A stretch of 37,428 nucleotides of DNA from an uncultured Eubacteriales bacterium (GTDB lineage Bacteria; Bacillota; Clostridia; Peptostreptococcales; Anaerovoracaceae), in assembly GCA_902775345.1 (NCBI GenBank), contig CACYLW010000014.1:1-37428 (forward strand), given 5' to 3'. The stretch's first letter is position 1. Each line of letters starts with the position of its first letter. This document shows, in pieces, positions 2,645 through 20,710 of this stretch. Below the pieces are notes generated by a model, which saw nothing but the letters and a program-made list of their open reading frames with translations, did not search any database and was not told where the DNA came from. The position numbers and the translations under genes are program-made.

Positions 2645-2667
2645 ATTCAATTAATGGAGATAAGTAA

Positions 2668-3396
2668 ATGAGTGACGCAGTAGTCGTAAAATTTGATAAC
2701 GTTACAAAACTCTATAAGCTGTACAAAAGCGACAAGGCACGTTTCAAAGGCCTCTTCAGCAAGAAGGTCCCTTACAAGGAGAACCGCGCGGTGAACGGCC
2801 TGTCGTTTGAAGTGCACAGGGGAGAGAGTGTCGCGCTTTTCGGAAGGAACGGCGCCGGAAAATCCACCATTCTCAAGATGGTTACCGGTGTAGCGTTTCC
2901 TACGGAGGGAGAGATCTTTGTCGACGGAAAAGTAAGCGCTCTTCTCGAGCTAGGCGCGGGCTTTGATGCCGAGTCCACAGGAAGAGAGAACATACGCTTC
3001 AAGTGCAGCCTGATGGGAATGTCCGAATCTGAGATCGCTGAAGTAGAGGATGACATCATTGCGTTTGCCGACATCGGCGACTATATCGATCAGCCGCTCA
3101 GATCCTATTCAAGCGGTATGAAAGCAAGGCTCGGTTTCGCGATAAGCGTCAACGCGCAGCCTGACATACTGATAGTAGATGAGGCGCTAAGTGTAGGAGA
3201 CAGAAACTTCCAGCAGAAGTGCAAGAAAAAAGTAGGCGAGATAATGTCGGATGAGGACGTGACGCTCCTCTTCGTTACGCATTCGCTCCAGACGGCAAAA
3301 GACTTCTGCAAGAGGGGCATCGTTCTAGAAAGAGGAAAGAAGCTCTTCGACGGAGACATCGACGAAGCTATAGAGTTTTACAATTCAAGTCACTAG
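2668..3396 (+). CDS. tarH: Teichoic acid ABC exporter, ATP-binding subunit (TarH/TagH-type)
   Basis: Cytoplasmic ATPase partner of the TarG permease. The 242-residue protein shows Walker A GRNGAGKST (residues 59-67), the signature YSSGMKARLGFA, Walker B ILIVDEALSVGD and a switch His in LLFVTHS. The N-terminus FDNVTKLYKLYKSDKARFK is typical of the TagH/Wzt group of polysaccharide exporters. It lacks the long C-terminal extension of B. subtilis TagH and the carbohydrate-binding domain of many Wzt proteins, so it is the short form. The ATG at 2668 has an upstream GGAGA ribosome site. It closes the tarIJGH block; the next gene converges on it only 6 bases away. Confidence 0.9.
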   Translation: MSDAVVVKFDNVTKLYKLYKSDKARFKGLFSKKVPYKENRAVNGLSFEVHRGESVALFGRNGAGKSTILKMVTGVAFPTEGEIFVDGKVSALLELGAGFDAESTGRENIRFKCSLMGMSESEIAEVEDDIIAFADIGDYIDQPLRSYSSGMKARLGFAISVNAQPDILIVDEALSVGDRNFQQKCKKKVGEIMSDEDVTLLFVTHSLQTAKDFCKRGIVLERGKKLFDGDIDEAIEFYNSSH

Positions 3397-4887: not shown

Positions 4888-5020
4888 CAGAAGAGGGCGG
4901 CGATTATTAATAAAACGTAATATAAAAGGCTGTATAGGTTTATTGCGGCTTTTTTGAATCGTTTATAACATAATATGCGGATTACTATACGCAAATACGC
5001 TTGTATGGAGGTTGAGTTCT

Positions 5021-6686: not shown

Positions 6687-7880
6687 ATGAGCGAAAAAAA
6701 GGTACTTATACTTGGTGCAGGAAGAGGTCAGGTTGATCTTTATAAAGCTGCAAAAAAAATAGGCGCGCATACTGTTGCGGTGAGTATTCCGGGAGACTAT
6801 CCGGGATTCCCGTTTGCCGATGAGATCGAGTATGTGGACATAAGGGACAAGGAAGGCGTACTGAAAGCTGCGGAGAAGCATGGCGCTGACGCTGTAGTGA
6901 CGGCGTGCGTGGACATCCCTGTCCCGGCAGTCGGATATGTATGCGACAATATGGGACTGAAAGGCATTTCTTATGAAGCGGCGGTCGTAAGCACCAACAA
7001 GCTTCTGATGAAAAGAGCGTTTGAAAAGGACGGAGTAAGAACGGCAAGATTCGTCGAATGCATGCCGGGCGATGATCCTGTTTCTGTAAGCTCCCATCTG
7101 AACTATCCTCTTATAGTCAAGCCGGTCGACCTCGCAGGCAGCAGAGGGATACAGATCGTCGAAAACGAGAGGGACCTTTCGGAAGCTGTCGGTCTTACAA
7201 TGAGCGAGACCTCCGAGGATTACTGCATAATAGAAGAGTACATCGACGGATATGAGTTCAGCGCGACAGCGTTCGTCCTCGACGGAGAAATACTGTTCGT
7301 TCTGCCGATGGGCGACGTAAGATACGGAGAAAATGACGAGATACCTGCAGGACACTACCTGCCTTACGAAGATGAACCGGGCGTTCTGGAAGATTTCGAC
7401 AGACAGATGAGAGCCGGCATCCGCGCGCTCGGACTCGATAACTGTGCGGTAAATGCCGATGTCATGCGTAAGGACGGAAAAGTCTACATCATAGAGATGA
7501 CAGGCAGGCTCGGCGCCAACTGCATACCTGAACTGACATCCATCTACATGGGATATGATATTGACAGGATGATCGTAGAGGCTGCCCTCGGTGAGAAAGG
7601 CTTTCTGGAGTCCATCATGGACGGAAAAGCGCCTGAGACACCATGCTATGCGCAGATGATCATCTCGGAAAAGAGCGGTATCCTGAAGGACGTGCACGTA
7701 GACAGCAGTGTCAGGGAGCAGGCAGACATACTGTTCTTCTCCAAACCGGGAAATGAGATCCGCAAGTTCAGCTGCACGAATGACTGCGTAGGGCAGATCG
7801 TTACAAGCGGCAGAACTCTTGAGGAAGCAAAAGAAAAGGCTGCCGCAGCGGCAGCCGGGATCACACTTGATCTTGAATAA
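6687..7880 (+). CDS. ATP-grasp ligase 1
   Basis: ATP-grasp enzymes join a carboxylate, through an acyl phosphate, to an amine or other nucleophile. This 397-residue protein has a pre-ATP-grasp Rossmann-like N-terminus (VLILGAGRGQVDLYKAAK), the STNKLLMKRAFEKDGV segment, the nucleotide-binding loop KPVDLAGSRGI (Lys145, loop 146-155) and the metal-binding stretch IIEMTGRLGAN. A C-terminal domain of about 100 residues follows. It is related to the ATP-grasp proteins at 11367 and 13559. The gene starts 4 bases after the secreted NlpC/P60-like gene, so the two are probably cotranscribed, and a terminator follows at 7918. The substrate is unknown; a biotin carboxylase or PurK role is unlikely because no partner genes are present. 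Confidence 0.8.
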   Translation: MSEKKVLILGAGRGQVDLYKAAKKIGAHTVAVSIPGDYPGFPFADEIEYVDIRDKEGVLKAAEKHGADAVVTACVDIPVPAVGYVCDNMGLKGISYEAAVVSTNKLLMKRAFEKDGVRTARFVECMPGDDPVSVSSHLNYPLIVKPVDLAGSRGIQIVENERDLSEAVGLTMSETSEDYCIIEEYIDGYEFSATAFVLDGEILFVLPMGDVRYGENDEIPAGHYLPYEDEPGVLEDFDRQMRAGIRALGLDNCAVNADVMRKDGKVYIIEMTGRLGANCIPELTSIYMGYDIDRMIVEAALGEKGFLESIMDGKAPETPCYAQMIISEKSGILKDVHVDSSVREQADILFFSKPGNEIRKFSCTNDCVGQIVTSGRTLEEAKEKAAAAAAGITLDLE

Positions 7881-7896
7881 TTAAGGATCAGACTTA

Positions 7897-8631
7897 TCAG
7901 GACTGATCATCACCGGAACCGGACGCTTTTGCCGTCCGGTCTGTTTTTTTCAGGGACCTGGTGCTCGCGTCCATGGCTTTCAGGAACACTTCCTTTGACT
8001 CTTCATCGTAGAGGATGCCTTCAAGGACATATACCGAGATACCCTTGTTTCCCGAAACAGCAAAATACAGAGTGCGCGGAGTCCTGGTACTCATGTCCTG
8101 ACTGTCTTCAGGCGGTGACACGAGGAAGCCTCTGAATTCTCCGGCCTCCACCTTCTCGTTGTTCATTCTCGAACCTTCAGTCTCACCGGTCTTCCACTCA
8201 TCGAACCAGTTGACAGGAGTCTTGCCTTCAGGGATATCCTCCTTTGGCGTAAAGCTGTCTCTGTACAGCGATATCTCGTAAAGAAGCTCGCCCTCCTTGT
8301 CACGGTATGATGCGATGACGGCGCGCGGGATGGTAGGATATTCGGTATCGGTCTCTGCCCAAGAATACGATATGTCATACTCAGGCTTGCCCTTTGTAGG
8401 GACGCTTGCCGACACATTGTTTACGATCAGCTTGCCTTCGCCGCAGCTTATTTTATCTGTGACACCTTCATCGGCGAACTTTATCTTGTCTTTGTCGTTG
8501 ATGGTAACTGACCTCATTAGAAGCGTTATCATCAGCAGAGCAAGGAGGATCTCAATGATGAAAAGGAGCAGAGGCGGTCTTTTTCTCCTTCTTTTTGCTT
8601 TTTTCTTTTTTTCTTCAGCCGTTTTTTTCAT
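7897..8631 (-). CDS. Membrane-anchored protein of unknown function
   Basis: I do not recognise this 244-residue protein. It begins with a very basic stretch (residues 1-19, rich in Lys and Arg), followed by one hydrophobic segment (about 20-40) and a domain of roughly 200 residues predicted to lie outside. The outer domain has alternating strands with many Glu, Asp and Ser, and a polar C-terminal tail. The basic-inside rule supports an N-in, C-out anchor. It is transcribed alone, divergent from the second NlpC/P60-like gene. The ATG has no ribosome site, but a well-formed promoter ends 7 bases upstream. Its last codons contain a terminator for the opposite strand. Confidence 0.7.
   Translation of the reverse strand: MKKTAEEKKKKAKRRRKRPPLLLFIIEILLALLMITLLMRSVTINDKDKIKFADEGVTDKISCGEGKLIVNNVSASVPTKGKPEYDISYSWAETDTEYPTIPRAVIASYRDKEGELLYEISLYRDSFTPKEDIPEGKTPVNWFDEWKTGETEGSRMNNEKVEAGEFRGFLVSPPEDSQDMSTRTPRTLYFAVSGNKGISVYVLEGILYDEESKEVFLKAMDASTRSLKKTDRTAKASGSGDDQS
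7918..7950 (+). terminator. Rho-independent terminator after ATP-grasp 1
   Basis: An 8-bp stem, ACCGGACG (7918-7925) with CGTCCGGT (7933-7940), is followed by CTG and seven T residues (7944-7950). It ends the plus-strand transcript of the NlpC/P60-like and ATP-grasp pair. It lies inside the 3' coding end of the convergent gene at 7897-8631. Confidence 0.8.
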
Positions 8632-8638
8632 AGAACAA

Positions 8639-8667
8639 AAGATACCATTTAATTGTTTGTTTGTAAA
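8639..8667 (-). promoter_or_regulatory. Promoter of the anchored-protein gene (minus strand)
   Basis: On the minus strand: -35 TTTACA (8662-8667), a 17-base spacer, and -10 TATCTT (8639-8644) preceded by TGG, giving an extended -10. The -10 ends 7 bases before the ATG at 8631, so the message may have no leader. It overlaps the divergent plus-strand promoter. Confidence 0.55.
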
Positions 8668-8681
8668 TAATATGGTAGAAT
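8653..8681 (+). promoter_or_regulatory. Promoter of the second NlpC/P60-like gene
   Basis: -35 TTGTTT (8653-8658), 17-base spacer, -10 TAGAAT (8676-8681) preceded by TGG as an extended -10. The expected start point leaves a leader of roughly 25 bases that contains the GGGGGAGA ribosome site. Confidence 0.55.
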
Positions 8682-8711
8682 ATCAGCGCTTATCAAAATG
8701 GGGGAGATTTC

Positions 8712-10133
8712 ATGTCTACAGCACTTAAGGTGATCAACACAATACTGGCGGTCTGCCTTATCACAGCATGCGGAGTCGTGCTGTCTTTTGCTGAAGATGA
8801 ACCTGAGCTCTCCATCTACAATACAAGGATCATCACCAATGATGTCGACACTACATACATTGAAGGAGAAGTACCTGTAGCCTGCGGACAGAGGATAATC
8901 GTTTCCAACGGATTCACGGCCATAGCGACTAAGGCTCTGCCGGATACGAACGCGAAAGCAGGATTCCGTATCAAGATCCCGGCTAACAGGATCAGCAAGT
9001 CAAGAGTTACTGTACTTTATGTAAGGACGGACGGCGGCGAAGGACAGAACCAGCTCCTCGGAAAGAGAGTCGAGATCAACTATAAGGAGAAAAAGTCCCA
9101 GAAGATAAGCGTTGAGGACGAAGAAGTCTCACTGACATATCCGGGTCTTGACGAAACACTCGGCGCCAAGGCAACATCCGGAGACGAGCTTATGTATGTC
9201 TCGAGCGATCCTGCGGTTGCAAAGGTCGATGAAAACGGCACGATCACACCTGTAGGCGAGGGTGAGGCAAAGATATCAATCCGGCAGATCGGCACCGGAG
9301 AATATAAGAAGGCGGAAAAGTCCGTGAAAGTGGCAGTCGAGGCGATCAACGCATATACTGTAACGTTCCATTCAAGCGCTGACGAGGATGAGACCAGTAC
9401 GCAGATCATCCCTACTGACACGACAGAGCCGCTTCAGGCAAATGAGTTTGAGAACGGATCGCATCAGTTCCTCGGATGGGCGACTGAGGACGACGGACTC
9501 GTCAAGTACACAGATGCTGAATCAGTGGCAGACATAGCAGAAAAGGGCGAGAATACCGACCTCTATGCTGTCTGGACCGGAGACGGCGCGCGTGCTGCTG
9601 TTGCATGGGCCATCATGATCGCGAATGACGATTCCTTCGCTTACGGCGCGAAGCCTGCGGCGAATGCCATAGGATGCTATTTCTGCGGAACCAACTGCGG
9701 ACCGGTAAAGAAGAACAAGCCGAAGGGCTATGAAAAGACATATGTATGTCTTACGTTCGTAGGCGCGGCGTATGCTCACGGGGCAGAGGACCCTGAGATC
9801 CTCTATGCCGACCAGCACGCCAAGATGCCTCTCTATGAGAACAACAACAACTTCTCCAAGTTCTCGTGCTGGACTAAAGTCGGAAACTGCTCGGCTCTGA
9901 GCATCTCTGACCTGCAGCCGGGAGATGTTGTCATCCAGTGGTCTGACCGCAACGACAACAGCGGACACGTATGGATGTATGCAGGCGATGACCAGATCGT
10001 AGAAAGCACCGGAGGCGGCTGGGGAGCAAACTCCATCGCTCTCAAGGGCGGAGCATCCGGAAGACTTGCAAGCTACGGCAGAAACGGCAGAAACTTCGTG
10101 ATGAGATATACGGGAGCGAACGCCGGAAATTAA
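8712..10133 (+). CDS. Secreted wall enzyme: Ig-like and InlB-type repeats plus Cys-rich NlpC/P60-like domain
   Basis: Secreted protein of 473 residues. A signal peptide (about 1-27, ending in LSFA) is followed by a beta-rich segment, a bacterial Ig-like (BIG2-type) domain with VSSDPAVAKVDENGTITPVGEGEAKI-like features around residues 155-190, and an InlB/Flg_new-type repeat (YTVTFHSS...FLGWA...LYAVW) near residues 215-292. The C-terminal 175 residues closely match the catalytic domain of the protein at 5021-6682: the CYFC motif (322, 325), probable nucleophile Cys346 in TYVCLTF and His419 in SGHVWMY, with the same 73-residue Cys-His spacing. The presumed activity is peptidoglycan peptide hydrolysis. 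It has its own promoter and a downstream terminator. The two enzymes share a catalytic domain but have unrelated targeting regions. Confidence 0.82.
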   Translation: MSTALKVINTILAVCLITACGVVLSFAEDEPELSIYNTRIITNDVDTTYIEGEVPVACGQRIIVSNGFTAIATKALPDTNAKAGFRIKIPANRISKSRVTVLYVRTDGGEGQNQLLGKRVEINYKEKKSQKISVEDEEVSLTYPGLDETLGAKATSGDELMYVSSDPAVAKVDENGTITPVGEGEAKISIRQIGTGEYKKAEKSVKVAVEAINAYTVTFHSSADEDETSTQIIPTDTTEPLQANEFENGSHQFLGWATEDDGLVKYTDAESVADIAEKGENTDLYAVWTGDGARAAVAWAIMIANDDSFAYGAKPAANAIGCYFCGTNCGPVKKNKPKGYEKTYVCLTFVGAAYAHGAEDPEILYADQHAKMPLYENNNNFSKFSCWTKVGNCSALSISDLQPGDVVIQWSDRNDNSGHVWMYAGDDQIVESTGGGWGANSIALKGGASGRLASYGRNGRNFVMRYTGANAGN

Positions 10134-10149
10134 AGACCGGAAACATGAT

Positions 10150-10197
10150 AAAAGCAGCGGGGAAATGTGTCAGACAGCGCAGACCCCGCTTTTCTTA
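10150..10197 (+). terminator. Probable terminator after the second NlpC/P60-like gene
   Basis: AAAAGC (10150-10155) and GGGG (10159-10162) pair with CCCC (10184-10187) and GCTTTT (10188-10193), with a 3-base bulge in the left arm and a long loop. The stem ends in TTTTCTT. It is imperfect but well placed, 16 bases after the stop. Confidence 0.5.
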
Positions 10198-10210
10198 TGA
10201 TTGCTTCAAG

Positions 10211-10239
10211 TTGAGATAATACAGGCGATATGATAATAT
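10211..10239 (+). promoter_or_regulatory. Promoter of the 10267-17854 operon
   Basis: -35 TTGAGA (10211-10216), 17-base spacer, -10 TAATAT (10234-10239). It lies 27 bases before the ATG at 10267, which has its own AGAGG ribosome site at 10253-10257. Genes downstream run on one strand with short gaps to the terminator at 17854. Confidence 0.5.
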
Positions 10240-10266
10240 TCTTCTTGAAATCAGAGGCCTTTCAGC

Positions 10267-11343
10267 ATGAAAAAAAGTAAAAAAAGAGTAGCGATAATAA
10301 GCCGCGAGAGCAATCAGAAAACACTTGATATAAGGCTTCTCGAAGAAGAACTTCTGCGAAGGGGGATCGAAGTAAAAACCCTGTGCAGGCTTCTCACCAA
10401 GGAGAGATCTCTCAAGGCGGCCGGATACATGGGGCATATACTTAAACAGGAGGCGGAGATACTCCGCTCCGATGTTGTTGTGCTCGATACATACTGCATT
10501 CCGGCCAGTCTGCTGCCTCACCGCAAGGGGACAAAAGTAGTCCAGATGTGGCATGCTCTCGGCGCGATCAAGAAATTCGGCTGGCAGACTGTAGGCAAGG
10601 AGGACGGCACGTCCCCTAAGACCGCAAGGCTCATGAGGATGCACCGCGGATACGATCACGTAGTATGTGCAAGCGATATTACTGCCGGGCACTTCTGCGA
10701 AGCTTTTGATGTAAGCCGGGACAGGATCGCCAAATATGGTCTTCCGCGCATCGATCACATACGCAGCGTTGCTCTCGGAAAAGACAGACAGAAGACGGCG
10801 GACAGGATATATGGAAAGTATCCTGAGCTGAAGGGGAAGAAGATCGTACTGTACGCGCCGACTTTCCGCAGGAACGGCACTGACGACGGCGGCAGGCTGG
10901 TAAAGGCTCTGGAAGCCGCGGGTCATTCTGTTGTCGTAAAACTGCACCCGCTGTACAGGAATGCGGATGCGCAGTGCGCAGGCAGCGCGGTTTATGATGA
11001 TGAATTCACATCATATGAGTGGCTCTCAGTCGCGGACGCAATAATCAGCGACTACTCTTCGCTTGTCATAGAAGCGTCGCTTGCGGGAAAGCCGCTTTAT
11101 CTTTACCTGTATGACATCGACGGGTACAGCAGCTCGACAGGACTGAACATAGATTTCAGCAGGGAGCCGGTCGCTCCGTATGCGTTCAAGGATGCTGAGG
11201 AGCTGGCAGCCGCGATCGGCAGGGACTATGACATAAATGCTCTGAATGAGTTCAGAGACAGATATATAGATATTGATACCGGCAGCGTCGATGAGGGATA
11301 CTGCACATCGAAGCTCGCTGACTTTATAGAAAGCCTCATGTGA
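10267..11343 (+). CDS. CDP-alditol phosphotransferase (TagB/TagF family), short form
   Basis: Member of the CDP-glycerol glycerophosphotransferase family, which transfers glycerol or ribitol phosphate from its CDP derivative to a lipid-linked acceptor at the inner membrane face. The 358-residue protein shows the family blocks in order: VVQMWHALGAIKKFG (catalytic-type His), YGLPRIDHI, VLYAPTFRRNG, VVKLHPLY and the acidic ISDYSSLVIEAS. At this length it resembles single-domain primase-type enzymes such as TagB more than large TagF polymerases. It is the first gene of the operon and its stop lies 23 bases before the ATG of ATP-grasp 2. Whether the donor is CDP-glycerol or CDP-ribitol cannot be read from sequence. 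Confidence 0.85.
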   Translation: MKKSKKRVAIISRESNQKTLDIRLLEEELLRRGIEVKTLCRLLTKERSLKAAGYMGHILKQEAEILRSDVVVLDTYCIPASLLPHRKGTKVVQMWHALGAIKKFGWQTVGKEDGTSPKTARLMRMHRGYDHVVCASDITAGHFCEAFDVSRDRIAKYGLPRIDHIRSVALGKDRQKTADRIYGKYPELKGKKIVLYAPTFRRNGTDDGGRLVKALEAAGHSVVVKLHPLYRNADAQCAGSAVYDDEFTSYEWLSVADAIISDYSSLVIEASLAGKPLYLYLYDIDGYSSSTGLNIDFSREPVAPYAFKDAEELAAAIGRDYDINALNEFRDRYIDIDTGSVDEGYCTSKLADFIESLM

Positions 11344-11366
11344 TCATTGAGACTGGAGGTGAAGCG

Positions 11367-12470
11367 ATGGAAAAGAAAAAAATAGCGATACTCGGAGCCG
11401 CGCTGTTTCAGGCGCCGGCAATAGAGAAGGCAAAGGAGATGGGTCTCGAGACTCATGTCTTCGCGTGGAAGACCGGAGACATGGGAGAAAAAATGGCGGA
11501 CTATTTCTATCCGATCAGCATAAGGGATAAGGAAGAGATCCTTGAAGAATGCAGACGCATCGGGATCGACGGCATCACGAGCATAGCGTCCGACCTTGCC
11601 ATGGAGACCGTGAACTACGTGGCTGAAAAGATGGGCCTGCCGGGTAATTCGATCGAAGCCACCAGGATAAGCACCAACAAGCACTGGATGAGGGAAGCTT
11701 TCGAAAAGAACGGAGACCCGAGCCCTAAGAGCATACTGGTTGATTCAGCAACGGACATAGACGAGATCGACCTCGAATTCCCGCTCATCGTCAAACCTAC
11801 CGACAGAAGCGGCAGCAGAGGTGTCCACAAAGTGTACAACAGCAGAAAGCTCAGGGACGCCATAGTACGCGCAAGAGAATACAGCTTTGAGAACAAGGCT
11901 GTCGTAGAGGAATTCGTTGAGGGTGACGAGTACAGCGTAGAATATATTTCCTATGAAGGGAAGCACTACTTCCTTGCGATCACCCAGAAGCTGACGACGG
12001 GAGCACCTTTCTTTATTGAAACGGGGCACAGAGAACCGGCGCCTCTTTCGCCTGAGATGGAGGAAAAGATCAAGGCGGTCTGCGATCATGCGCTCGACAC
12101 GCTGCAGCTCAGAAGCGGCGCAGCTCACATAGAGCTCAAAGTCGATGGAGACAAGATCCGTCTTATCGAGATCGGCGGCAGGATGGGCGGAGACTTCATA
12201 GGAAGCGACCTTGTGGAGCTCTCGACAGGCTATGATTTCGTTAAGGGTGTCATAAACGTTGCGATGGGCAATCCGCCTGAGGTTCCTGAAAACCTGAAGA
12301 GAGAAAAAGCCGGCGTGAATTTCATAATCAACGCGGACGATGTTGCCGAGTATGAGAAATTCAAGGAAGAACACCCGGGAACGATCCTGAGGGAACACAT
12401 CGACAGCGATCTCTCGGATATAGTGACAGACAGCTCCAACCGTCACGGTTATTATATTTTCAAATTCTGA
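11367..12470 (+). CDS. ATP-grasp ligase 2
   Basis: A 367-residue ATP-grasp protein with IAILGAALFQAPAIEKAKEMG at the N-terminus, the segment STNKHWMREAFEKNG, the nucleotide-binding loop KPTDRSGSRGV and the metal-site stretch LIEIGGRMGGDFIGSD. It resembles ATP-grasp 1 (compare STNKLLMKRAFEKDG). The start is set at ATG 11367, 6 bases after the GGAGGT site at 11355-11360; an in-frame GTG at 11340 has no such site. It lies between a CDP-alditol phosphotransferase and a lipid-linked sugar synthase. It probably activates a carboxylate as acyl phosphate for ligation to an amine; the substrate is unknown. It could act before or after the sugar is joined to the polymer. Confidence 0.8.
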   Translation: MEKKKIAILGAALFQAPAIEKAKEMGLETHVFAWKTGDMGEKMADYFYPISIRDKEEILEECRRIGIDGITSIASDLAMETVNYVAEKMGLPGNSIEATRISTNKHWMREAFEKNGDPSPKSILVDSATDIDEIDLEFPLIVKPTDRSGSRGVHKVYNSRKLRDAIVRAREYSFENKAVVEEFVEGDEYSVEYISYEGKHYFLAITQKLTTGAPFFIETGHREPAPLSPEMEEKIKAVCDHALDTLQLRSGAAHIELKVDGDKIRLIEIGGRMGGDFIGSDLVELSTGYDFVKGVINVAMGNPPEVPENLKREKAGVNFIINADDVAEYEKFKEEHPGTILREHIDSDLSDIVTDSSNRHGYYIFKF

Positions 12471-12489
12471 CCACAACGAGGAAAAAAGA

Positions 12490-13434
12490 ATGCTCATTTC
12501 ATTTGTAATACCATGCTACAGATCACAGAATACTCTGCCGCAGGTAGTAAATACGATACAGGAGACCGTAAAGACCAGAAAGGAATTCGATTCGGAGATC
12601 ATACTGGTCAACGACGCTTCCCCGGACGACACCTGGGGAACCATCAGGAAGTTATGCGCCGAATATGATAATGTCAGGGGAGTCAACCTTGCCAAGAACT
12701 GCGGCCAGCAGGCGGCCATCATGGCAGGCCTCAGACACACGAAGGGCGAACTTGTGGCTGTCAGTGATGACGACGGCCAGACGCCTATAGAAACAGTCTT
12801 TGAATTCTATGATCATATGGTTGAAGGCGATTATGACGTAGTCTGCGCGGAATACCAGGACAGGGGAAAGAGATCGCTGTTCCGCAGGCTGGGTTCCTGG
12901 GCAGACAACACGATGATGAGGATGTTCGTCGATACGCCTGAAGGCATAAGGCTTTCGGTATACTTCCTGGCGAAGAGATTCGTGGTCGACGAGATCATCA
13001 AATACCACAACGCATTCCCGCACATGGAGGGACTCCTTATAAGGACGACGCTCAACATAGGTAATGTAAAGGTGAATCAGAAGGAGAGGACGTCCGGAAG
13101 TTCCGGCTACAATCTCAAAAAACTGCTGACGACCTGGATCAACGGACTTACCACGTTCTCGATCAAGCCTCTGAGGATAGCCGTGATACTCGGAATGCTG
13201 ATGGCGCTTATCGGATTCATAATCATAATAGCGCTCGTTATCATAAAACTGACCGGGCCTAAGATGGCACATGGCTGGACATCACTGGTAGCGATCAATG
13301 TGCTCATCGGCGGAATGATAATGATAATGCTCGGGGTGATAGGAGAGTATGTCGGGAGGATATATCAGTGCCTGAACCAGAACCCGCAGTACGTAGTCCG
13401 GGAGACGATAAACTATGAAAGAGCAAAGGAATAA
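12490..13434 (+). CDS. GtrB/ArnC-like polyprenyl-phosphate sugar synthase
   Basis: The 314-residue protein has an N-terminal GT2 domain (SFVIPCYRSQNTLP, LVNDASPDDTW, active-site DDDGQ at residues 93-97) followed by two membrane helices (about 222-252 and 262-285) and the C-terminal IGEYVGRIYQCLNQNPQYVVRE block. This is the layout of DpgS, GtrB, ArnC and CsbB enzymes, which move a sugar from a nucleotide to undecaprenyl phosphate at the inner membrane face. Such lipid sugars are flipped and used outside by GT-C transferases. It lies 19 bases after ATP-grasp 2. A second enzyme of the same build is encoded at 17916-18863. The sugar is unknown. Confidence 0.85.
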   Translation: MLISFVIPCYRSQNTLPQVVNTIQETVKTRKEFDSEIILVNDASPDDTWGTIRKLCAEYDNVRGVNLAKNCGQQAAIMAGLRHTKGELVAVSDDDGQTPIETVFEFYDHMVEGDYDVVCAEYQDRGKRSLFRRLGSWADNTMMRMFVDTPEGIRLSVYFLAKRFVVDEIIKYHNAFPHMEGLLIRTTLNIGNVKVNQKERTSGSSGYNLKKLLTTWINGLTTFSIKPLRIAVILGMLMALIGFIIIIALVIIKLTGPKMAHGWTSLVAINVLIGGMIMIMLGVIGEYVGRIYQCLNQNPQYVVRETINYERAKE

Positions 13435-13522
13435 AAAGCGGAAACATCCGCCGAAAAAGATCCTGAAAAAGCTCGGCAGGAAGATCAGACGTTTTCTTGC
13501 CAGGGTCAATCCGGCACCATAA
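13415..13522 (+). CDS. Possible 35-residue cationic peptide
   Basis: An ATG at 13415, overlapping the end of the GtrB-like gene in another frame, opens 35 codons. A GGAG site lies at 13401-13404, 10 bases upstream. The peptide has 9 Lys and 6 Arg but only one acidic residue, and its middle (KKILKKLGRKIRRFLARV) could form a basic amphipathic helix. It fills most of the otherwise empty gap before ATP-grasp 3. It might be a membrane-associated or regulatory peptide, or a chance reading frame. No family is recognised. Confidence 0.3.
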   Translation: MKEQRNKKRKHPPKKILKKLGRKIRRFLARVNPAP

Positions 13523-13558
13523 GAATCGATACAGTAAGGCAGACAGAAACAATCAGAA

Positions 13559-14689
13559 ATGGCGAAGAAAAGAATACTAATTCTAGGAGCGGGCAACGCT
13601 CAGATAGACGCAATAGATTATTGCAAGGAGCACGGATACGAGGTGGCAGGCTGCAGCTATACGACAGTTGACTGCGGCATACCTCACCTTGATATTTTTG
13701 AGCAGGTTGATATAAAGAACGTGGACGGCGTAGTCGCGCTGGCAGAGAAGTACGGGGTATCGGCTATATATTCAGTAGGCTCTGACCTTGCCATGCCGGT
13801 CGTCATGAAGGCGAGCGAGATACTCGGCCTTCCTCACTTCATAAGCCCGGAAGCGGCTGAGACCTGCCACTCGAAGGGAAAGATGCGCGAGACGCTGGGG
13901 AACGGATTCAAAGGGAACGCGGCTTTCATGGTGTGCGGCACTCTCGAGGAGGCGCTCACATACAGTGACTTCCCTGCCATGATGAAACCTGTGGATTCAC
14001 AGGGGCAGCGGGGCTGCTTCAAAGTGGAGAGCCCGGCAGACATAGAAGAACACTTCGCGGCATCGCTCGACTACTCGTTCGAGGGAAAGGTCATTATCGA
14101 AGAGTTCATCAATGGGCCTGAGGTGTCGGTCAACGCATATCTGCAGGACGGCGAAATGAGATTCGCCATGGTGAGCGACCGCTACGCCTTTGACGAATAC
14201 CCGGGAGGCATCATAAAAGAGCACAGGGTGCCTTCATCGTTTGCCGATGCAGAGGCGGAGGCTGAGACCAGGGATCTTTGCAGAAGGACTGCGGCGAAGA
14301 TCGGGATAGATAACGGACCTTGCTACTTCCAGATAAAGCTCCGCAACGGAAAGGAGCCGGTGATCATCGAAGTGACACCGAGACTCGACGGCTGCCATAT
14401 GTGGAATCTCATAAAGCATTACTGCGGAGCAGATCTGCTCGACGCGTGCTTCAGACATCTGCTCGAGGGAGAGCAGGTACTGAAAGAGGAATATGAGATG
14501 CCGCGTGAAGAGTACAGCCTCAAATTCATGAGCAAGGAGCCGAATACAAAATTCAGAAGGGCTGATTTTGATACTTCCGGCGCCGAGTTCGCCTGCTATT
14601 ATTACAATGACGGCGACAGAGTGCTGAAGATCAACGGATATATTGAAAAGTGCGGATATGTCATCGGCAGAACCGGCCGCACAGTTTAA
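13559..14689 (+). CDS. ATP-grasp ligase 3
   Basis: A 376-residue ATP-grasp protein: N-terminal ILILGAGNAQIDAIDYCKEHG, the segment CHSKGKMRETLGNG in the place of the STNK block of the other two, nucleotide-binding loop KPVDSQGQRGCFKV, and the metal-site stretch VIIEVTPRLDGCHMW. The C-terminal 90 residues differ from ATP-grasp 1 and 2. It is directly followed by the CapK-like adenylating enzyme and the SDR gene, so these three may share a pathway. No clear ribosome site precedes the ATG, which lies 36 bases after the end of the small basic ORF. The ligated substrates are unknown. Confidence 0.8.
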   Translation: MAKKRILILGAGNAQIDAIDYCKEHGYEVAGCSYTTVDCGIPHLDIFEQVDIKNVDGVVALAEKYGVSAIYSVGSDLAMPVVMKASEILGLPHFISPEAAETCHSKGKMRETLGNGFKGNAAFMVCGTLEEALTYSDFPAMMKPVDSQGQRGCFKVESPADIEEHFAASLDYSFEGKVIIEEFINGPEVSVNAYLQDGEMRFAMVSDRYAFDEYPGGIIKEHRVPSSFADAEAEAETRDLCRRTAAKIGIDNGPCYFQIKLRNGKEPVIIEVTPRLDGCHMWNLIKHYCGADLLDACFRHLLEGEQVLKEEYEMPREEYSLKFMSKEPNTKFRRADFDTSGAEFACYYYNDGDRVLKINGYIEKCGYVIGRTGRTV

Positions 14690-14734
14690 CGTAATGATCA
14701 ATATGCCATGCACCGGGCGTAAAGGGAGGCTTAT

Positions 14735-16042
14735 ATGGGCATACAGAAAAAACTCAAAAATGTGTATACGGTATGGTATCTTCTGACGCTTAAGAGGACC
14801 TTTGAAGGAGATCCGAAGAAGATCAAGGCAGACCAGAACCGCAAGATCCACAAGCTGATGAAGAGGGCCTACAGGATACCTGTCTACAGGGAGAAATTCG
14901 AGGCATCCGGGACTACGCCTGACGACTATCATTCGGCAGAGGATCTCGTGAAATTTCCGACGCTTACAAAGCCTGAGCTCAGGCTCTGGATGCAGACGGA
15001 GTGGGACGATCATCCTGAGATCCATGATGACGTCAACATCCTGAGCACCAGCGGCTCTTCGGGAACACCGCTCAAGATGCTCTATACCCAGAAGGAGCAG
15101 GCATGCAGCGACGCGAACTGGGCAAGAGCTCTCGCAGCTGCGGGCTATAAGCCGCTCAGAGGAAAGATGTACTCATTCTCCACGAGCCACAAGGGGCCTC
15201 GTAAAAAGGACAGGGACTCCATAATCCAGAAGTTCGGGCTCATGCGCCGCAAGGTGGTAGGTGAGGATCATATCGTAGGCGACGGCATCGCCGATCTGAT
15301 CAACGATATAAACGAATATAAGCCTGATCTCATCTGCCTGAGACGCAACGTCATGGTAAGGATGGTGGCTTATGCTGAATCACATAACATGAAGATCCAC
15401 AAGCCTTCGTTCTACGCTCCTATCAGCGAGATGGTCGACGAGGTCACGCGCAAGATGCTCGCAAAGGCTCTCGGACCGGGACTCATCGACGCATACGGCG
15501 TATCCGAGATGGGAAGCTTCATCTATCAGTTCCCTGAGAAGGACTTCCGCTATGTGGCGAACGATATCGCTGTAGCGAACGTTTATAACGACAAAAATGA
15601 GCTGGCGGATGACGGCAGAATAGTAGTCACATCGCTCTACAAGCACACATATCCGCTCATCAACTACGAGACGCTGGACCTCGGCAAATCATATGTGAAA
15701 GACGGGATCAGATACTTCACGGATATCGAGGGGCGCATGAACGACCTCGTCAAGCATGAGGGCGGAGCGGACTCATCCGCGCTGCAGCTGATGAGAATAG
15801 CCAACCACACGGTGGGCCTCTCGCAGTTCAGATTCATCGAGGAAACTTACCACGACATGAAGATCCAGCTCGTGGCGGATCCGTTCAACAAGTCGATGAC
15901 TAAGGAACAGATCGAGGAAAGGTTCATCACGGAAGTAGAAAAGCTGTATGGCGACGAGTTCAAGATCACGATCGAGTGGCTCGACGAACTTCCGCCGGAG
16001 AAAACGGGCAAGCAGAGATGCTTCGTCTGCAATGTGGAATAA
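14735..16042 (+). CDS. CapK/PaaK-like adenylate-forming enzyme
   Basis: The 435-residue protein belongs to the phenylacetate-CoA ligase/CapK branch of the ANL superfamily, which activates carboxylates as acyl-AMP. Visible motifs are the P-loop STSGSSGTPLK (residues 104-114), DAYGVSEMGSF for adenine and acid binding, YFTDIEGRMNDLV for the hinge region, and the C-terminal EKTGKQRCF containing the likely catalytic Lys. CapK homologues occur in capsule and O-antigen loci, where their role is largely undefined. The ATG has a GGGAGG site upstream. With the neighbouring ATP-grasp enzymes it suggests that a carboxylic acid is attached to the polymer or to a precursor. It is not close enough by eye to call a true phenylacetate-CoA ligase. 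Confidence 0.8.
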   Translation: MGIQKKLKNVYTVWYLLTLKRTFEGDPKKIKADQNRKIHKLMKRAYRIPVYREKFEASGTTPDDYHSAEDLVKFPTLTKPELRLWMQTEWDDHPEIHDDVNILSTSGSSGTPLKMLYTQKEQACSDANWARALAAAGYKPLRGKMYSFSTSHKGPRKKDRDSIIQKFGLMRRKVVGEDHIVGDGIADLINDINEYKPDLICLRRNVMVRMVAYAESHNMKIHKPSFYAPISEMVDEVTRKMLAKALGPGLIDAYGVSEMGSFIYQFPEKDFRYVANDIAVANVYNDKNELADDGRIVVTSLYKHTYPLINYETLDLGKSYVKDGIRYFTDIEGRMNDLVKHEGGADSSALQLMRIANHTVGLSQFRFIEETYHDMKIQLVADPFNKSMTKEQIEERFITEVEKLYGDEFKITIEWLDELPPEKTGKQRCFVCNVE

Positions 16043-16043
16043 C

Positions 16044-16937
16044 ATGAAGATAGCAGTAACAGGCGCGAGCGGCTTCATCGGAACGGAGCTGCTCGCCGTT
16101 TTAAAAAACAGAGAGAATACAGAAGCGATAGCTCTTACCAGAGACGCCTCGCGCTTCACTGACACAGACTGGTGCGAGTGGCGCAGTACTGATTACAGCG
16201 GGGAGAGCCTGAAAAAAGCGCTTGAAGGAGCAGACTGCGTGATCCATCTCGCAGGCGTAAGGGGTACGGAGAACGACCCGCAGAAATTCGCCGTCAATGA
16301 AGAGATGACAGCGAACATCCTCGAGGCGATGATGCATGACGGGGTGAGGCGCGTAGTCTTCGCGTCGACGATGTCTGTCTACAACGACGATGAGCTCATG
16401 CCGTGGACTGAAGACGCTCCTCTCGGCGGGCGCTCAAGCTACGGGGACTCGAAGGTCAGCTGCGAAAAACTCATAAGAAAAACCGCTGAAGAGAGCGGCT
16501 TTACCTATGGCATCGCGCGCATAGCGCAGGTCGTCGGCGAGGGCGAGAAGCGCAGAGGAATGATGAACGTCTTCCTGGATACCGCGCGCGAGAACGGCAC
16601 CATCAGGGTCATGGGAAGGAGTGTGCTGAAAAAGCAGTACATTTACGTAAAGGACCTCGTGGAAGTGCTTGCGATCCTTGCTGGCGGAAATGAGAGGTTT
16701 GATGCTTCGGAGAACATAGTCGTAAACGTCGGGATGCAGGATGCCTACAGCAACCTCGAGGTGGCGCAGACAGTGAACGCGGTCTTCGGAAACCATACTC
16801 CTATAGACTATGATGACTCGTATCCTGAGAAGGGCCGGCCTTTCCACATGGATATTAGCAGGCTGAGAAACGCGCTTGGATATGAACCTCTGGATATGAG
16901 AGAAGCTGTGACCGCGCTGAGAGATCAGACCGCATGA
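16044..16937 (+). CDS. NAD-dependent epimerase/dehydratase (extended SDR)
   Basis: The 297-residue protein has the Rossmann motif TGASGFIG at the N-terminus, VIHLAGV, a Ser in VFASTMSVY and the catalytic YGDSK (Tyr-x3-Lys). Extended SDRs of this type epimerise, dehydrate or reduce nucleotide sugars, and may also act on other hydroxylated substrates. The substrate here is unknown. The ATG at 16044 follows the capK-like stop by one base and is preferred because the protein then starts at MKIAVTGASGF. The reading frame stays open further upstream, but that part overlaps the preceding gene and looks non-coding. The 3' end overlaps the next gene by four bases (ATGA). Confidence 0.82.
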   Translation: MKIAVTGASGFIGTELLAVLKNRENTEAIALTRDASRFTDTDWCEWRSTDYSGESLKKALEGADCVIHLAGVRGTENDPQKFAVNEEMTANILEAMMHDGVRRVVFASTMSVYNDDELMPWTEDAPLGGRSSYGDSKVSCEKLIRKTAEESGFTYGIARIAQVVGEGEKRRGMMNVFLDTARENGTIRVMGRSVLKKQYIYVKDLVEVLAILAGGNERFDASENIVVNVGMQDAYSNLEVAQTVNAVFGNHTPIDYDDSYPEKGRPFHMDISRLRNALGYEPLDMREAVTALRDQTA

Positions 16938-17915: not shown

Positions 17916-18863
17916 TTATTCCTTTTTCTCTTTTTCTCCGTATATTTCTCTCACAACGAACTGAGGGTAATTGCCCATCGTCAGGAACATCCGCCCGACA
18001 TATTCACCTACGATACCCAGAGTCAAAAGAATAATTCCGGAGAAGATGATGATGGTCATCATTGTTGATGTCCAGCCGAGGATCTTGGTCTTGCTGATTA
18101 TCTTGCGCACCAGCAGCCAGACAAGGCCGAGAACTCCGCATAAGGTCGTGAAGATCCCGAACTTCTGGGCCATCCTCAGAGGGACTACCGAGAAGCCGGC
18201 GATGTTTGACCACAGACTGAGGAGCTTCTTAAGTGTATAGCCGGACTGCCCGTATGCCCGGTCAAAGTGCTCGATAGGTACGCTGGCTATGCGTTCCGGA
18301 GAGACTGTACGGAGGATCAGTCCCTGCATCTGTGTGTAATGTGCAGGATATGTGATGATGCTGTCGCGGACGTACTTTTTCATCGCCACGAAGCTTGACG
18401 TCTTCATGTCTTTAGGCTTGCCGATGAGGATACGGACGCTCTCGTGCGTGAACCAGGAGCCGAAATTCCTGAAAGGGGAATGTTTCTTGTCTCCGTAGTA
18501 TCCGTAAACTACATCGTGGTCATCATCCAGGCCGCTGAGCATCTTCTTCAGCTGGGAAGGATGTGTCTGCATGTCATCATCCATGAATACAATGACATCG
18601 CCCTCTGCGTAATTGAGCCCGCAGATGAGGGCGTTGTGCTGACCTACGTTATGAGCAAGGGCAATGGCAGTGACACAGTCCAGTTCGCCGGCCAGGGACT
18701 TGAGTGCGCGGACGGTCTCTCCGCCGTCCGGCGAGAAGTCGTCTACCAGGACGAACTCAAAATCATCGATGCCGAGATTGCCGAATTCCTTTATTGTTTC
18801 CTTTACTACAGTCTCTATCGTATGCGACGACTTGTAGCACGGGATCACTATCGAATATTTCAT
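17916..18863 (-). CDS. Second GtrB/ArnC-like polyprenyl-phosphate sugar synthase
   Basis: The 315-residue protein has the same build as the enzyme at 12490: GT2 domain with YSIVIPCYKSSHTIE, VDDFSPDGGE and DDDMQT (95-100), then two membrane helices and the C-terminal GIVGEYVGRMFLTMGNYPQFVVRE block. It should transfer a sugar from a nucleotide to undecaprenyl phosphate. The active-site neighbourhood (DDDMQTHPSQL versus DDDGQTPIETV) differs between the two, so they may use different sugars. The ATG has an AGAGGA ribosome site. It is transcribed away from the polytopic membrane protein at 18983, a plausible partner, as in CsbB/YfhO-type systems of Bacillus. Confidence 0.85.
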   Translation of the reverse strand: MKYSIVIPCYKSSHTIETVVKETIKEFGNLGIDDFEFVLVDDFSPDGGETVRALKSLAGELDCVTAIALAHNVGQHNALICGLNYAEGDVIVFMDDDMQTHPSQLKKMLSGLDDDHDVVYGYYGDKKHSPFRNFGSWFTHESVRILIGKPKDMKTSSFVAMKKYVRDSIITYPAHYTQMQGLILRTVSPERIASVPIEHFDRAYGQSGYTLKKLLSLWSNIAGFSVVPLRMAQKFGIFTTLCGVLGLVWLLVRKIISKTKILGWTSTMMTIIIFSGIILLTLGIVGEYVGRMFLTMGNYPQFVVREIYGEKEKKE

Positions 18864-18903
18864 TGCAGATCCTCTTCTTCAGTCCGATATTTTTACCATT
18901 CCA

Positions 18904-18932
18904 ATTTTATTATGTTTACCGGGGCATGGCAA
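18904..18932 (-). promoter_or_regulatory. Promoter of the minus-strand GtrB-like gene
   Basis: On the minus strand: -35 TTGCCA (18927-18932), 17-base spacer, -10 TAAAAT (18904-18909), about 40 bases before the ATG at 18863. Confidence 0.5.
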
Positions 18933-18966
18933 GTGAAACAGATTATGCAATATTAGCGCCCGGATA

Positions 18967-18975
18967 TGGTATTAT
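18967..18975 (+). promoter_or_regulatory. Extended -10 element before the polytopic membrane gene
   Basis: TGGTATTAT (18967-18975) is an extended -10. It ends 7 bases before the ATG at 18983, again suggesting a leaderless message. No good -35 is visible. If translation instead begins at ATG 18926, this element would be intragenic and not a promoter. Confidence 0.35.
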
Positions 18976-18982
18976 ACAAATA

Positions 18983-20710
18983 ATGGAAAAGCATTTAGAC
19001 AAAAGTAAAAAAGAATACAGGTACAATAATCCGTGGAACTGGCTGATATCCCTGGCAGTCAATGCTGTCATACTTGCGGCAGTGCTGTACGCGACAGACC
19101 TCGTTTATGAAAGCAATGACGACTTTGCGATCGCGCAGGAGATACTGGCCGGATATCCGTTTGTGGGATTCGTCAATTATTATCTGTGCAAAGCGCTTAT
19201 ATTCTTCCAGGGAATGCTGCCTGAAACGAACGCTTTTGTGCTGTCTCAGATAGTGACATCATTCATGGCATTTACCGTGATACTGAAAGTGTTCCTCGAC
19301 AGAAAGAGCAACTTTTTCGAACTGACAGCGGCGGCCTTTATCGTTGCGTTCTTCTCGTTTGATCACTACAGCGCCGTACAGTTCACAAAGACCGCGGCTC
19401 TGCTGATGACTGCGGGACTGCTGTGGGTAGTGGACAATTACTGCAATGAGCGGAATGTGTTCGGCTTTATATTCGGCTTCGCCATGTTCTGGCTCGGAGT
19501 GGCTTACAGGCAAAAGGGGATGTTCCCGGCGCTGGCGTACGCTGCCTGCTTCATGCTCATATGGTGGCTGATCAACGGGAAAGAATTCTTCAAAGGCAGA
19601 AAGGCGCTGCCTGAGATCGCGCTTGTCTTTGTCGTGCTTGTCTTCCTTTTTGCTCCATACGGATTTGATAAACTCTCAGACGCAAAAAACGAAAGCACGC
19701 CCGAACTCAAATACTTCCGCGAATACCAGACCGAAAGGATACTGGTCACAGACTATCCTTTCCTGGACTTTTTTGATCAGAATGAGGACCGTTACAGTGA
19801 GGCCGGCCTGAGTTATAACGACCTCGAAATGATAGACCGGTGGATATTTGACTATGACGGGGCGGCTTCACTGGAGAACCTCAGAACGATAAACGAGATC
19901 AACAAGCCTTATGTACAGAAGACGAAATCCCTGAAAGGCGCGGTAATGAGCACGCTCAGAAGAGCGAAGACCTCTGTGATGGACCTCGATTATAACGGCA
20001 TGCACATTCTAATTGTCGCAGCCATTGTCCTGTACATACTGTTCACAAACAGGCCGAAAGCATGGCTTTACATCCTTGCTTTCGGAGCTTTGAGCATAGC
20101 GGTATACTGTGCGATCTTTTACATGCAGAGACCTCAGTACAGGGCGCTTTATGTAGCTGACGAAAGCGCGGCATTCTGGCTGATGTACGCGGCGATGGCG
20201 AGCGAAAAGTACAAAGCCGCAATTTCAAAGGCTGCAGGAATCCTTGCGCTGGCTGCCTGTGCGGCTCTTATCATCTGGATGACGCCTAACGCGATAGAAC
20301 GGCTTGATTCCATGCACTATCACAACACCACGGTCATAGAATCCCATGAGGTGACAGCGTACTTTGCAGATCATGAGGAAAACTTCTATATCGGACCGAC
20401 AACCACAATGAGGCAGCCTGATTCATATACCACGCCGCTCAGCCTTCCTCTGGCGCCGGTGAACGTGTCGGGAACAGGAGGATGGGAAACCCTGTCGCCA
20501 TACAAGCTGAGCCTTCTCGGAAAGTACGGAGTCACGAATCCTGTCACCGGTCTCATAGATGCTGAAGGAGTTTATTTCTTCGGAAACAGAAAGATCAGCA
20601 TAATGAAGGAATACTATAACAAGTGGTACTGTGAAGAAGGAGAGACCATAGCTTTCGAAAAAGTCGATGAGGTGGGTGAACACGGTATTTACAGAGTCGT
20701 CAGGAGGTGA
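18983..20710 (+). CDS. Polytopic membrane protein, GT-C-like
   Basis: Protein of 575 residues with about ten hydrophobic segments. After the first helix it has YESNDDFAIAQEI, an Asp-Asp pair in the external loop where GT-C glycosyltransferases carry catalytic acids. A large soluble region without helices follows in the C-terminal 120 residues. GT-C enzymes use polyprenyl-phosphate sugars outside the membrane, which suits the adjacent GtrB-like synthase. The family cannot be named by eye. The start is uncertain: ATG 18983 (MEKHLDKSKKE) gives a sensible cytoplasmic N-terminus but has no ribosome site; ATG 18926, with GGGG just before it, would add 19 residues. The frame stays open to 18704 inside the opposite gene, which I discount. 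Confidence 0.7.
   Translation: MEKHLDKSKKEYRYNNPWNWLISLAVNAVILAAVLYATDLVYESNDDFAIAQEILAGYPFVGFVNYYLCKALIFFQGMLPETNAFVLSQIVTSFMAFTVILKVFLDRKSNFFELTAAAFIVAFFSFDHYSAVQFTKTAALLMTAGLLWVVDNYCNERNVFGFIFGFAMFWLGVAYRQKGMFPALAYAACFMLIWWLINGKEFFKGRKALPEIALVFVVLVFLFAPYGFDKLSDAKNESTPELKYFREYQTERILVTDYPFLDFFDQNEDRYSEAGLSYNDLEMIDRWIFDYDGAASLENLRTINEINKPYVQKTKSLKGAVMSTLRRAKTSVMDLDYNGMHILIVAAIVLYILFTNRPKAWLYILAFGALSIAVYCAIFYMQRPQYRALYVADESAAFWLMYAAMASEKYKAAISKAAGILALAACAALIIWMTPNAIERLDSMHYHNTTVIESHEVTAYFADHEENFYIGPTTTMRQPDSYTTPLSLPLAPVNVSGTGGWETLSPYKLSLLGKYGVTNPVTGLIDAEGVYFFGNRKISIMKEYYNKWYCEEGETIAFEKVDEVGEHGIYRVVRR

Follow-up and report, generated by a model that had tools for sequence, protein, structure and literature searches.

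ATP-grasp ligases, lipid-carrier enzymes and a PaaK-like enzyme in a teichoic acid locus of gut Clostridia probably decorate a wall sugar with amino acids or hydroxy acids

What do three ATP-grasp ligases and an adenylate-forming enzyme do in a wall teichoic acid locus? The locus lies on a 37,428-nucleotide stretch (the window), which is the entire contig 14 (CACYLW010000014.1) of an uncultured Eubacteriales bacterium of the Anaerovoracaceae (assembly GCA_902775345.1; 2.25 Mb, 26 contigs, 90.5% complete). A previous sequence-only reading of the window had proposed that the wall polymer, or one of its sugars, receives acyl or amino-acyl groups by a route other than that of the Dlt system, whose D-alanylation is, in textbooks, how Gram-positive bacteria adjust the charge of teichoic acids. 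We find the three ATP-grasp open reading frames (ORFs) and the enzyme of the ANL superfamily present as that reading described them, and comparative genomics both supports and narrows its acylation proposal, the chemistry of which we infer from sequence. Our analysis indicates that a sugar of the wall probably receives amino acids or hydroxy acids, attached by a route that does not resemble the D-alanine system already known. In its fuller form, which we hold to be reasonably likely, this reading has the locus producing a wall polymer of the teichoic type, with amino-acyl or hydroxy-acyl groups added to its side sugars in amide linkage in the cytoplasm.

The three ligases, GRASP1 (6687..7880), GRASP2 (11367..12470) and GRASP3 (13559..14689), are encoded on the forward strand, and all exceed the 27-bit cut-off of the Pfam ATP-grasp_4 model PF13535 (53.8, 87.4 and 46.4 bits, respectively); GRASP1 also carries an L-amino-acid-ligase C-terminal domain (LAL_C2, PF18603, 41.1 bits). 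The GRASP2 ORF was scanned from an alternative GTG start at 11340, which gives a 4-bp overlap with the preceding gene TagF1, and we took the ATG at 11367 as the conservative choice. As previously claimed, the nucleotide-loop Lys and the Gly-rich loop are retained in all three, together with the catalytic Glu/Arg, and the second metal-ligand Asn of the textbook ATP-grasp ExN motif is replaced by Thr in GRASP1 and GRASP3 and by Gly in GRASP2, a position where the L-amino-acid ligase BL00235 likewise aligns with Gly. Searched by sequence against the PDB, GRASP1 matched 4dim_A (E 3.9e-94), which carries the name phosphoribosylglycinamide synthetase, with BacD next, and GRASP2 matched 3vot_A, i.e., BL00235 (E 1.4e-25), with which it has an E-x-G-x-R motif in common. 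The structure model of GRASP3 (pLDDT 89.8) gave 4dim, 3vot and BacD as leading Foldseek matches, and ranking by Z placed 3vot at the top (35.5, at 16% identity), followed by PurT (34.1), biotin carboxylase (33.9) and 4dim (31.8). Among characterised enzymes, L-amino-acid ligases come closest to GRASP2 in sequence and to GRASP3 in both sequence and fold. With this group (BL00235/3vot, BacD/3vmm, RizA/4wd3) the window enzymes share the ATP-grasp fold, the Lys/Gly-rich loop and the Glu/Arg pair, and GRASP1 its LAL_C2 likeness, but they are of low identity to it and sit among amino-sugar and lipid-carrier genes. None of the three reached an NCBIfam cut-off among the matches listed (the top 25 of 40 models, 25 of 46 and 12 of 12, respectively), so purine, biotin-carboxylase, Ddl and purT identities were rejected, although the PurT and biotin-carboxylase folds stand near behind by Z. 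By these listed matches, the ligases do not emerge as members of a primary metabolic family, which the sequence-only reading had named as an outcome that would count against it.

In a tree of 131 ATP-grasp sequences (FastTree, midpoint root), GRASP2 groups with genes near WecE in the class-wide regions L157 and L167 described below (11 members, support 1.0), GRASP3 groups with two ligases fused to an SDR (27 members, support 1.0), and GRASP1 groups with ArnC2-linked ATP-grasps of relatives (45-member node, support 0.47; 67-member node, support 1.0). These separate positions make the three enzymes distinct families and not recent duplicates; their earlier description as related but distinct holds for their distinctness, but they are not one set, being three clades with their own partners. 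GRASP2 usually stands with ArnC1, the relatives of GRASP1 with ArnC2, and GRASP3 with ANL and an NDP-sugar SDR. ArnC1 (12490..13434, forward strand) is a polyprenyl-phosphate glycosyltransferase-like protein that starts 19 bp after GRASP2 and falls below the cut-offs of both the PgfS model (151.4 bits, cut-off 500) and the ArnC equivalog model NF007986 (149.4 of 529 bits). ArnC2 (17916..18863, reverse strand; PF00535, 84.6 bits) is a second protein of this kind, and adjoins GRASP1-like ATP-grasps in relatives. The SDR (16032..16937, forward strand) is NDP-sugar epimerase/reductase-like (3m2p_A, E 2e-38 with the query from 16029) and overlaps ANL; we took its start as the ATG at 16032 and not 16029. 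TagF1, GRASP2, ArnC1, GRASP3, ANL, SDR and GDPD are co-directional over positions 10267-17854, separated in turn by 23, 19, 124, 45, about -11 and -4 bp, and this single direction with short gaps and overlaps makes an operon likely.

The sugar genes of the window indicate what such ligases could act on. Three enzymes of the dTDP-Fuc4NAc pathway, all on the forward strand, exceed their NCBIfam cut-offs, which supports the 4-amino sugar predicted earlier from this locus: RfbA, a glucose-1-phosphate thymidylyltransferase (34397..35284; TIGR01207, 472.5 of 360.65 bits), RfbB, a dTDP-glucose 4,6-dehydratase (26914..27933; TIGR01181, 489.3 of 365.1 bits), and WecE, a dTDP-4-amino-4,6-dideoxyhexose transaminase (27962..29095; TIGR02379, 633.1 of 434.85 bits; NF008687, 632.7 of 375 bits). 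An acetyltransferase domain of the WecD kind was absent from the 30 window ORFs taken in by our Pfam scan, the remaining genome not having been searched.

An independent sample of 245 genomes of the class, from which our own genome was left out for co-occurrence counts, demonstrated that ATP-grasp matches and WecE occur together: 16 of 23 WecE-positive genomes contain an ATP-grasp match, against 22 of 221 WecE-negative genomes (Fisher p 6e-10), and with WecE at an identity of at least 58%, 10 of 14 genomes do so against 28 of 230 others (p 1.7e-6). We fetched WecE regions from 20 of the 23 genomes, and in three of these, from three genomes of three families, the genes cluster. For example, L157 has the order WecE-ArnC1-GRASP2, with a GRASP2 57% identical to that of the window, and in L167 a GRASP2 (50%) adjoins WecE. 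The third, L197, reads RfbA-RfbB-u895-u393-membrane protein-ArnC2-[GRASP3::SDR]-WecE on one strand with most genes overlapping, u895 and u393 having only surface-repeat-type Pfam matches. GRASP3 and SDR are fused there in a 690-aa ORF (L168/L197), and a 656-aa GRASP3::SDR fusion stands beside ArnC2 in L177, from another genome. The suggestion that the 4-amino sugar is the acceptor gains support from these clusters and from the genome co-occurrence.

Further ATP-grasp regions of the same sample contained a DegT transaminase in 11 of 20 cases, against 0 of 36 control regions (p 1e-6; 319 kb and 608 kb compared). Nineteen genomes supplied the 20 regions: 3 WecE-positive ones and 16 of the 22 that have an ATP-grasp match but no WecE match. 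Of the controls, 16 (several of which are short) shared these genomes, and 20 were drawn from four other sample genomes. A recurrent cluster in L169, L170, L172, L174 and L175 consists of a DegT transaminase, a short GT2, an ATP-grasp, an NMT1/SsuA-like lipoprotein and an ABC permease and ATPase, the transporter being named by eye; in L169 and L170 the transaminase lies ~12 kb from the ATP-grasp. We did not count these five as the same module, but they remain in the genome-level co-occurrence count, and L169 and L170 also in the 58% subset.

Our analysis of relatives showed the neighbourhood to be conserved, a point on which the sequence-only reading had staked its proposal. Close relatives in public contigs are metagenome-assembled genomes of Mogibacterium sp. 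from goat and sheep intestine or of Clostridiales with RUG numbers, which denote the rumen, and the source is a gut bacterium related to Mogibacterium. Of 35 same-genus relatives, 29 have an ANL match at E 1e-77 or better, and in 30 same-genus regions (L039-L068) GRASP3 is next to ANL 14 times and GRASP2 next to ArnC1 6 times. ATP-grasp content varies among these genomes, with up to four in L049, where three GRASP2-like genes and one GRASP3 lie in one teichoic locus; two stand in tandem, at 30-33% identity to window GRASP2.

A wider scan, across genome contigs, yielded 214 relatives of ANL, from which we retained 80 loci, some on the same contigs as the genus set; genes were labelled by best BLAST match to the window proteins, and the fetched flanks were often short. 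These loci come from Mogibacterium and Lachnospiraceae, with one each from Atopobiaceae, Oscillospiraceae and Eubacterium, and many are named only to order or phylum. The records of L100 (Lachnospiraceae bacterium MD308) and L104 (strain 3-2) bear no metagenome-assembly mark, and both are probably isolates. Within the fetched flank an ATP-grasp is present in 65 loci, an ArnC-labelled gene in 62 and WecE in 22. Among the 94 ATP-grasp genes, 59 abut ArnC, 23 more abut ANL and 12 neither, and the 59 ATP-grasp/ArnC adjacencies compare with a mean of 18.0 and a maximum of 33 in 1000 within-locus shuffles. Adjacency of ANL to SDR (18; shuffle mean 4.0, max 10), to ATP-grasp (28, barely above the max of 27; mean 14.8) and to WecE (9, equal to the max; mean 3.2) is partly built in, because the loci were selected for ANL. 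ArnC/WecE adjacency (9) is within the shuffle range (mean 3.6, max 11), and ATP-grasp/WecE adjacency (1) is under the shuffle mean of 4.4 (max 11). In L098, WecE, ArnC2, GRASP1 and ANL stand in a row with gaps of 4, -4 and 12 bp. The conserved arrangement in relatives argues that these associations are not due to chance.

ANL itself (14735..16042, forward strand), a CapK-like enzyme, belongs to the PaaK-like ANL superfamily by fold and adenylation motifs. It has no Pfam match at E<=1e-3 and scores far below the PaaK equivalog cut-off (TIGR02155, 73.6 of 646.3 bits); its AlphaFold model (pLDDT 80.6) has PaaK1 and PaaK2 among the leading PDB matches in Foldseek, and TSGSSGxP, YGxxE, Asp315 and the C-terminal Gly-Lys (Lys426) are invariant across 16 ANL sequences. 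Its profile weakly matches 2-hydroxyisobutyryl-CoA synthetase (E 1.6e-7; Foldseek rank 24). In the class sample no ANL orthologue was found beyond our own genome (best other E 5e-17). Examination of the 80 loci demonstrated a ketopantoate-reductase-family gene within two genes of ANL in 12 (adjoining in 9; two on the opposite strand and five of the 12 near copies) and a gene of the L-lactate dehydrogenase (L-LDH) family directly adjoining ANL in 7, one of these within an ORF containing Ns, for a total of 19 loci with either gene; neither was present in the 76 regions fetched for other reasons. An apparent LCP-LDH fusion in L125 was rejected, as its 824-aa ORF crosses the assembly Ns, but its LDH part is still counted in the 7. 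The one reductase scanned (L102) passes the ketopantoate reductase subfamily model (195.6 of 141.35), and the one LDH scanned (L143) barely passes the L-LDH model (309.4 of 303.55). Two unrelated dehydrogenases that make 2-hydroxy acids, beside the same ANL, suggest that ANL probably activates a 2-hydroxy acid. Lactate is only one candidate for the acid, since 4 of the 7 LDHs have the loop AGRNRRVGEDR (the pattern used missed the loop in the remaining three), and Arg at the LDH specificity position points towards a dicarboxylic acid, malate for example. In this window ANL has no ketopantoate-reductase or LDH gene near it and its partner is the SDR, so that the hydroxy acid is suggested for this genome by homology only.

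In the mechanism that we favour, RfbA, RfbB and WecE, whose families are identified above, would produce dTDP-4-amino-4,6-dideoxygalactose (dTDP-Fuc4N). The ATP-grasps would activate an amino acid at its carboxylate as an acyl phosphate, at the cost of ATP, and link it to the sugar at its free 4-amino group or, where an amino acid is in place there, to that one. ANL would adenylate another acid, probably a 2-hydroxy acid, for use together with GRASP3; the SDR would adjust the sugar. ArnC1 and ArnC2 would load the acylated sugars onto undecaprenyl phosphate, as ArnC does with formylated Ara4N, N-acylation of Fuc4N being placed before or after this loading, and a flippase and a membrane glycosyltransferase would move them to the wall polymer outside. 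N-(amino)acylation of Fuc4N is the simplest account, because the WecE product has a free 4-amino group, no WecD-like acetyltransferase is seen in the window and the nearest characterised ATP-grasps form amides. Since the ATP-grasp sets differ between relatives, the decoration should vary among strains. As described in PMC3210612, Gram-negative O-antigens carry 4-(N-acetyl-D-alanyl)amino-4,6-dideoxyglucose and likewise an N-[(R)-3-hydroxybutyryl]-L-alanyl form. More tentatively, it is possible that in many gut and rumen Clostridia the ATP-grasp/ArnC pairs are interchangeable, a single building block being added by each to lipid-linked Fuc4N, which an ANL fed by a dedicated hydroxyacid dehydrogenase then caps; this might amount, with the same reserve, to a strain-variable amino-acyl and 2-hydroxy-acyl code on a 4-amino wall sugar, a cytoplasmic counterpart of extracellular Dlt D-alanylation. 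A candidate for the extracellular glycosyltransferase, judged by eye and by position, is GTC1 (18887..20710, forward strand), a multi-pass membrane protein and divergent neighbour of ArnC2; it has no Pfam match at E 0.01, YfhO included, and no mutual BLAST match with the 601-aa membrane protein of L197, which is also without a Pfam match.

Other explanations would leave the sugar untouched or give the ligases another role. The ATP-grasps could make free dipeptides or amidated acids that other enzymes attach, and the closest characterised enzymes, 3vot (BL00235) and BacD, are indeed amino-acid ligases that form dipeptides; we nevertheless hold this to be unlikely, as the tight ArnC and SDR pairing, the WecE clusters and the two GRASP3::SDR fusions point to a sugar-nucleotide substrate. 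The ligases might also form amides on a uronic acid or some different carboxyl sugar, or work as peptide ligases on a teichuronopeptide-type polymer, with the amino sugar not acylated. An ATP-grasp protein, TupA, has been linked to teichuronopeptide, but the UDP-glucose/GDP-mannose dehydrogenase domain is absent among the 30 window ORFs scanned and the sugar genes that co-occur are those for a 4-amino sugar, which renders this improbable. ATP-grasp ligases on surface polymers are discussed in PMC2824669, which cites a teichuronopeptide structure paper.

We likewise see little chance that ANL alone acylates the 4-amino group, via acyl-CoA or acyl-AMP, while the ATP-grasps serve another polymer or cofactor. 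Such a role would be in keeping with the amide formation of some PaaK-like ligases, with the 9 cases in which ANL adjoins WecE and with the 2-hydroxyacid dehydrogenases that adjoin ANL. However, the WecE-ArnC-ATP-grasp sets of L197 and L157 stand without an ANL gene, and ATP-grasp/ArnC adjacency greatly exceeds the shuffle level. The genome containing L197 (G069) has as its sole PaaK-like match a distant one (23%) on a different contig.

The favoured reading, N-acylation of a carrier-linked amino sugar, resembles several known systems in part. In the Ara4N pathway (ArnA-ArnC-ArnT) a 4-amino sugar is N-acylated, loaded by ArnC on undecaprenyl phosphate and moved outside, the same order as proposed here, but with UDP-Ara4N in place of dTDP-Fuc4N, a formyltransferase in place of an ATP-grasp and lipid A in place of a wall polymer. 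DltABCD, too, acylates a teichoic polymer by way of an activated carboxylate, whereas activation here would be by ATP-grasp and PaaK-type ANL enzymes. A route other than Dlt, as the sequence-only reading had it, agrees with our finding that no DltA above cut-off is present in this genome (best 109.5 of 559.85 bits, in an assembly 90.5% complete; DltB, DltC and DltD were not searched). Dlt-like O-acylation may accompany this route in some relatives. L078 encodes a DltA-like enzyme at 13636-15156 (DltA model, 238.6 of 559.85 bits) in the second gene downstream of GRASP3-ANL-SDR, on the opposite strand, as does L077 by cluster, and MBOAT-labelled genes are present in 13 of the 80 ANL loci. The Enterobacterial common antigen sugar Fuc4NAc (RfbA, RfbB, WecE, WecD) has the first three enzymes in common with the window, whose scanned ORFs contain ligases instead of a WecD-like acetyltransferase; the survey of PMC7725333 reports Fuc4NAc from Gammaproteobacteria alone. 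The carrier logic of our proposal follows CsbB/YfhO (PMC5836110 and PMC12826051), in which, as PMC5836110 describes, the ArnC-like CsbB and the membrane transferase YfhO decorate lipoteichoic or wall teichoic acid outside. In L101 a YfhO protein (357.9 bits) adjoins WecE-ArnC2-GRASP1, but the sugar here would be a 4-amino sugar with acylating enzymes, and GTC1 differs in lacking a YfhO match.

The presence of ATP-grasp ligases in surface-glycan loci has already been predicted. Iyer et al. reportedly predicted in 2009 ATP-grasp amino-acyl ligases in surface-polysaccharide loci, and these were likewise proposed to attach amino acids to surface sugars. One such ligase in Clostridium acetobutylicum is listed in PMC4000134. 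What is new, in comparison, is the lipid-carrier module of WecE and ArnC-type enzymes, the SDR fusion, the link of ANL to hydroxy acids and the teichoic setting; a literature search, with most subscription papers outside its reach, found no report of these among the papers listed. If correct, our reading would add a second way of tuning teichoic acid charge, cytoplasmic and amino-sugar-based, open to a range of acids and variable among strains, to gut bacteria in which wall polymers have had little study. ATP-grasp families with no assigned function would gain testable ones, among them the GRASP1 relative 4dim, whose solved structure bears a purine-pathway name and no other, and so would the PaaK-like proteins encoded in surface-glycan loci.

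The setting of these genes, a wall teichoic acid locus in the earlier description, is genuine by Pfam domain content and gene order. TarI, TarJ, TarG and TarH (109..3396, forward strand; PF01128, PF08240/PF00107, PF01061 and PF00005) are by domain and order the CDP-alditol supply (IspD-type TarI, zinc-dehydrogenase TarJ) and teichoic ABC exporter (TarGH). The window also encodes three Glyphos_transf proteins, including the CDP-alditol phosphotransferase family protein TagF1 (10267..11343, forward strand; PF04464, 151 bits) at the head of the run from GRASP2 to GDPD, and a TagO/WecA-family initiator and an LCP ligase (31855..34384, forward strand; PF00953, 131 bits; PF03816, 129.3 bits). The Pfam matches of the 30 scanned ORFs include no TagA/TarA glycosyltransferase, and the remaining genome was not searched for one. 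GDPD (16934-17854), a glycerophosphodiester phosphodiesterase with an N-terminal hydrophobic stretch seen by eye, ends the operon and could trim the polymer. Flanking GRASP1, the proteins at 5012-6682 and 8712-10133 have secreted-like starts and clearly similar C-terminal Cys/His amidase-like domains (by eye), the first with a weak, sub-cut-off NlpC/P60 match, and proteins of this kind recur in the loci of relatives. An L,D-transpeptidase (YkuD) with a fibronectin III domain (20835-22775) also lies within the teichoic locus, and similar proteins are found near ArnC2 in relatives.

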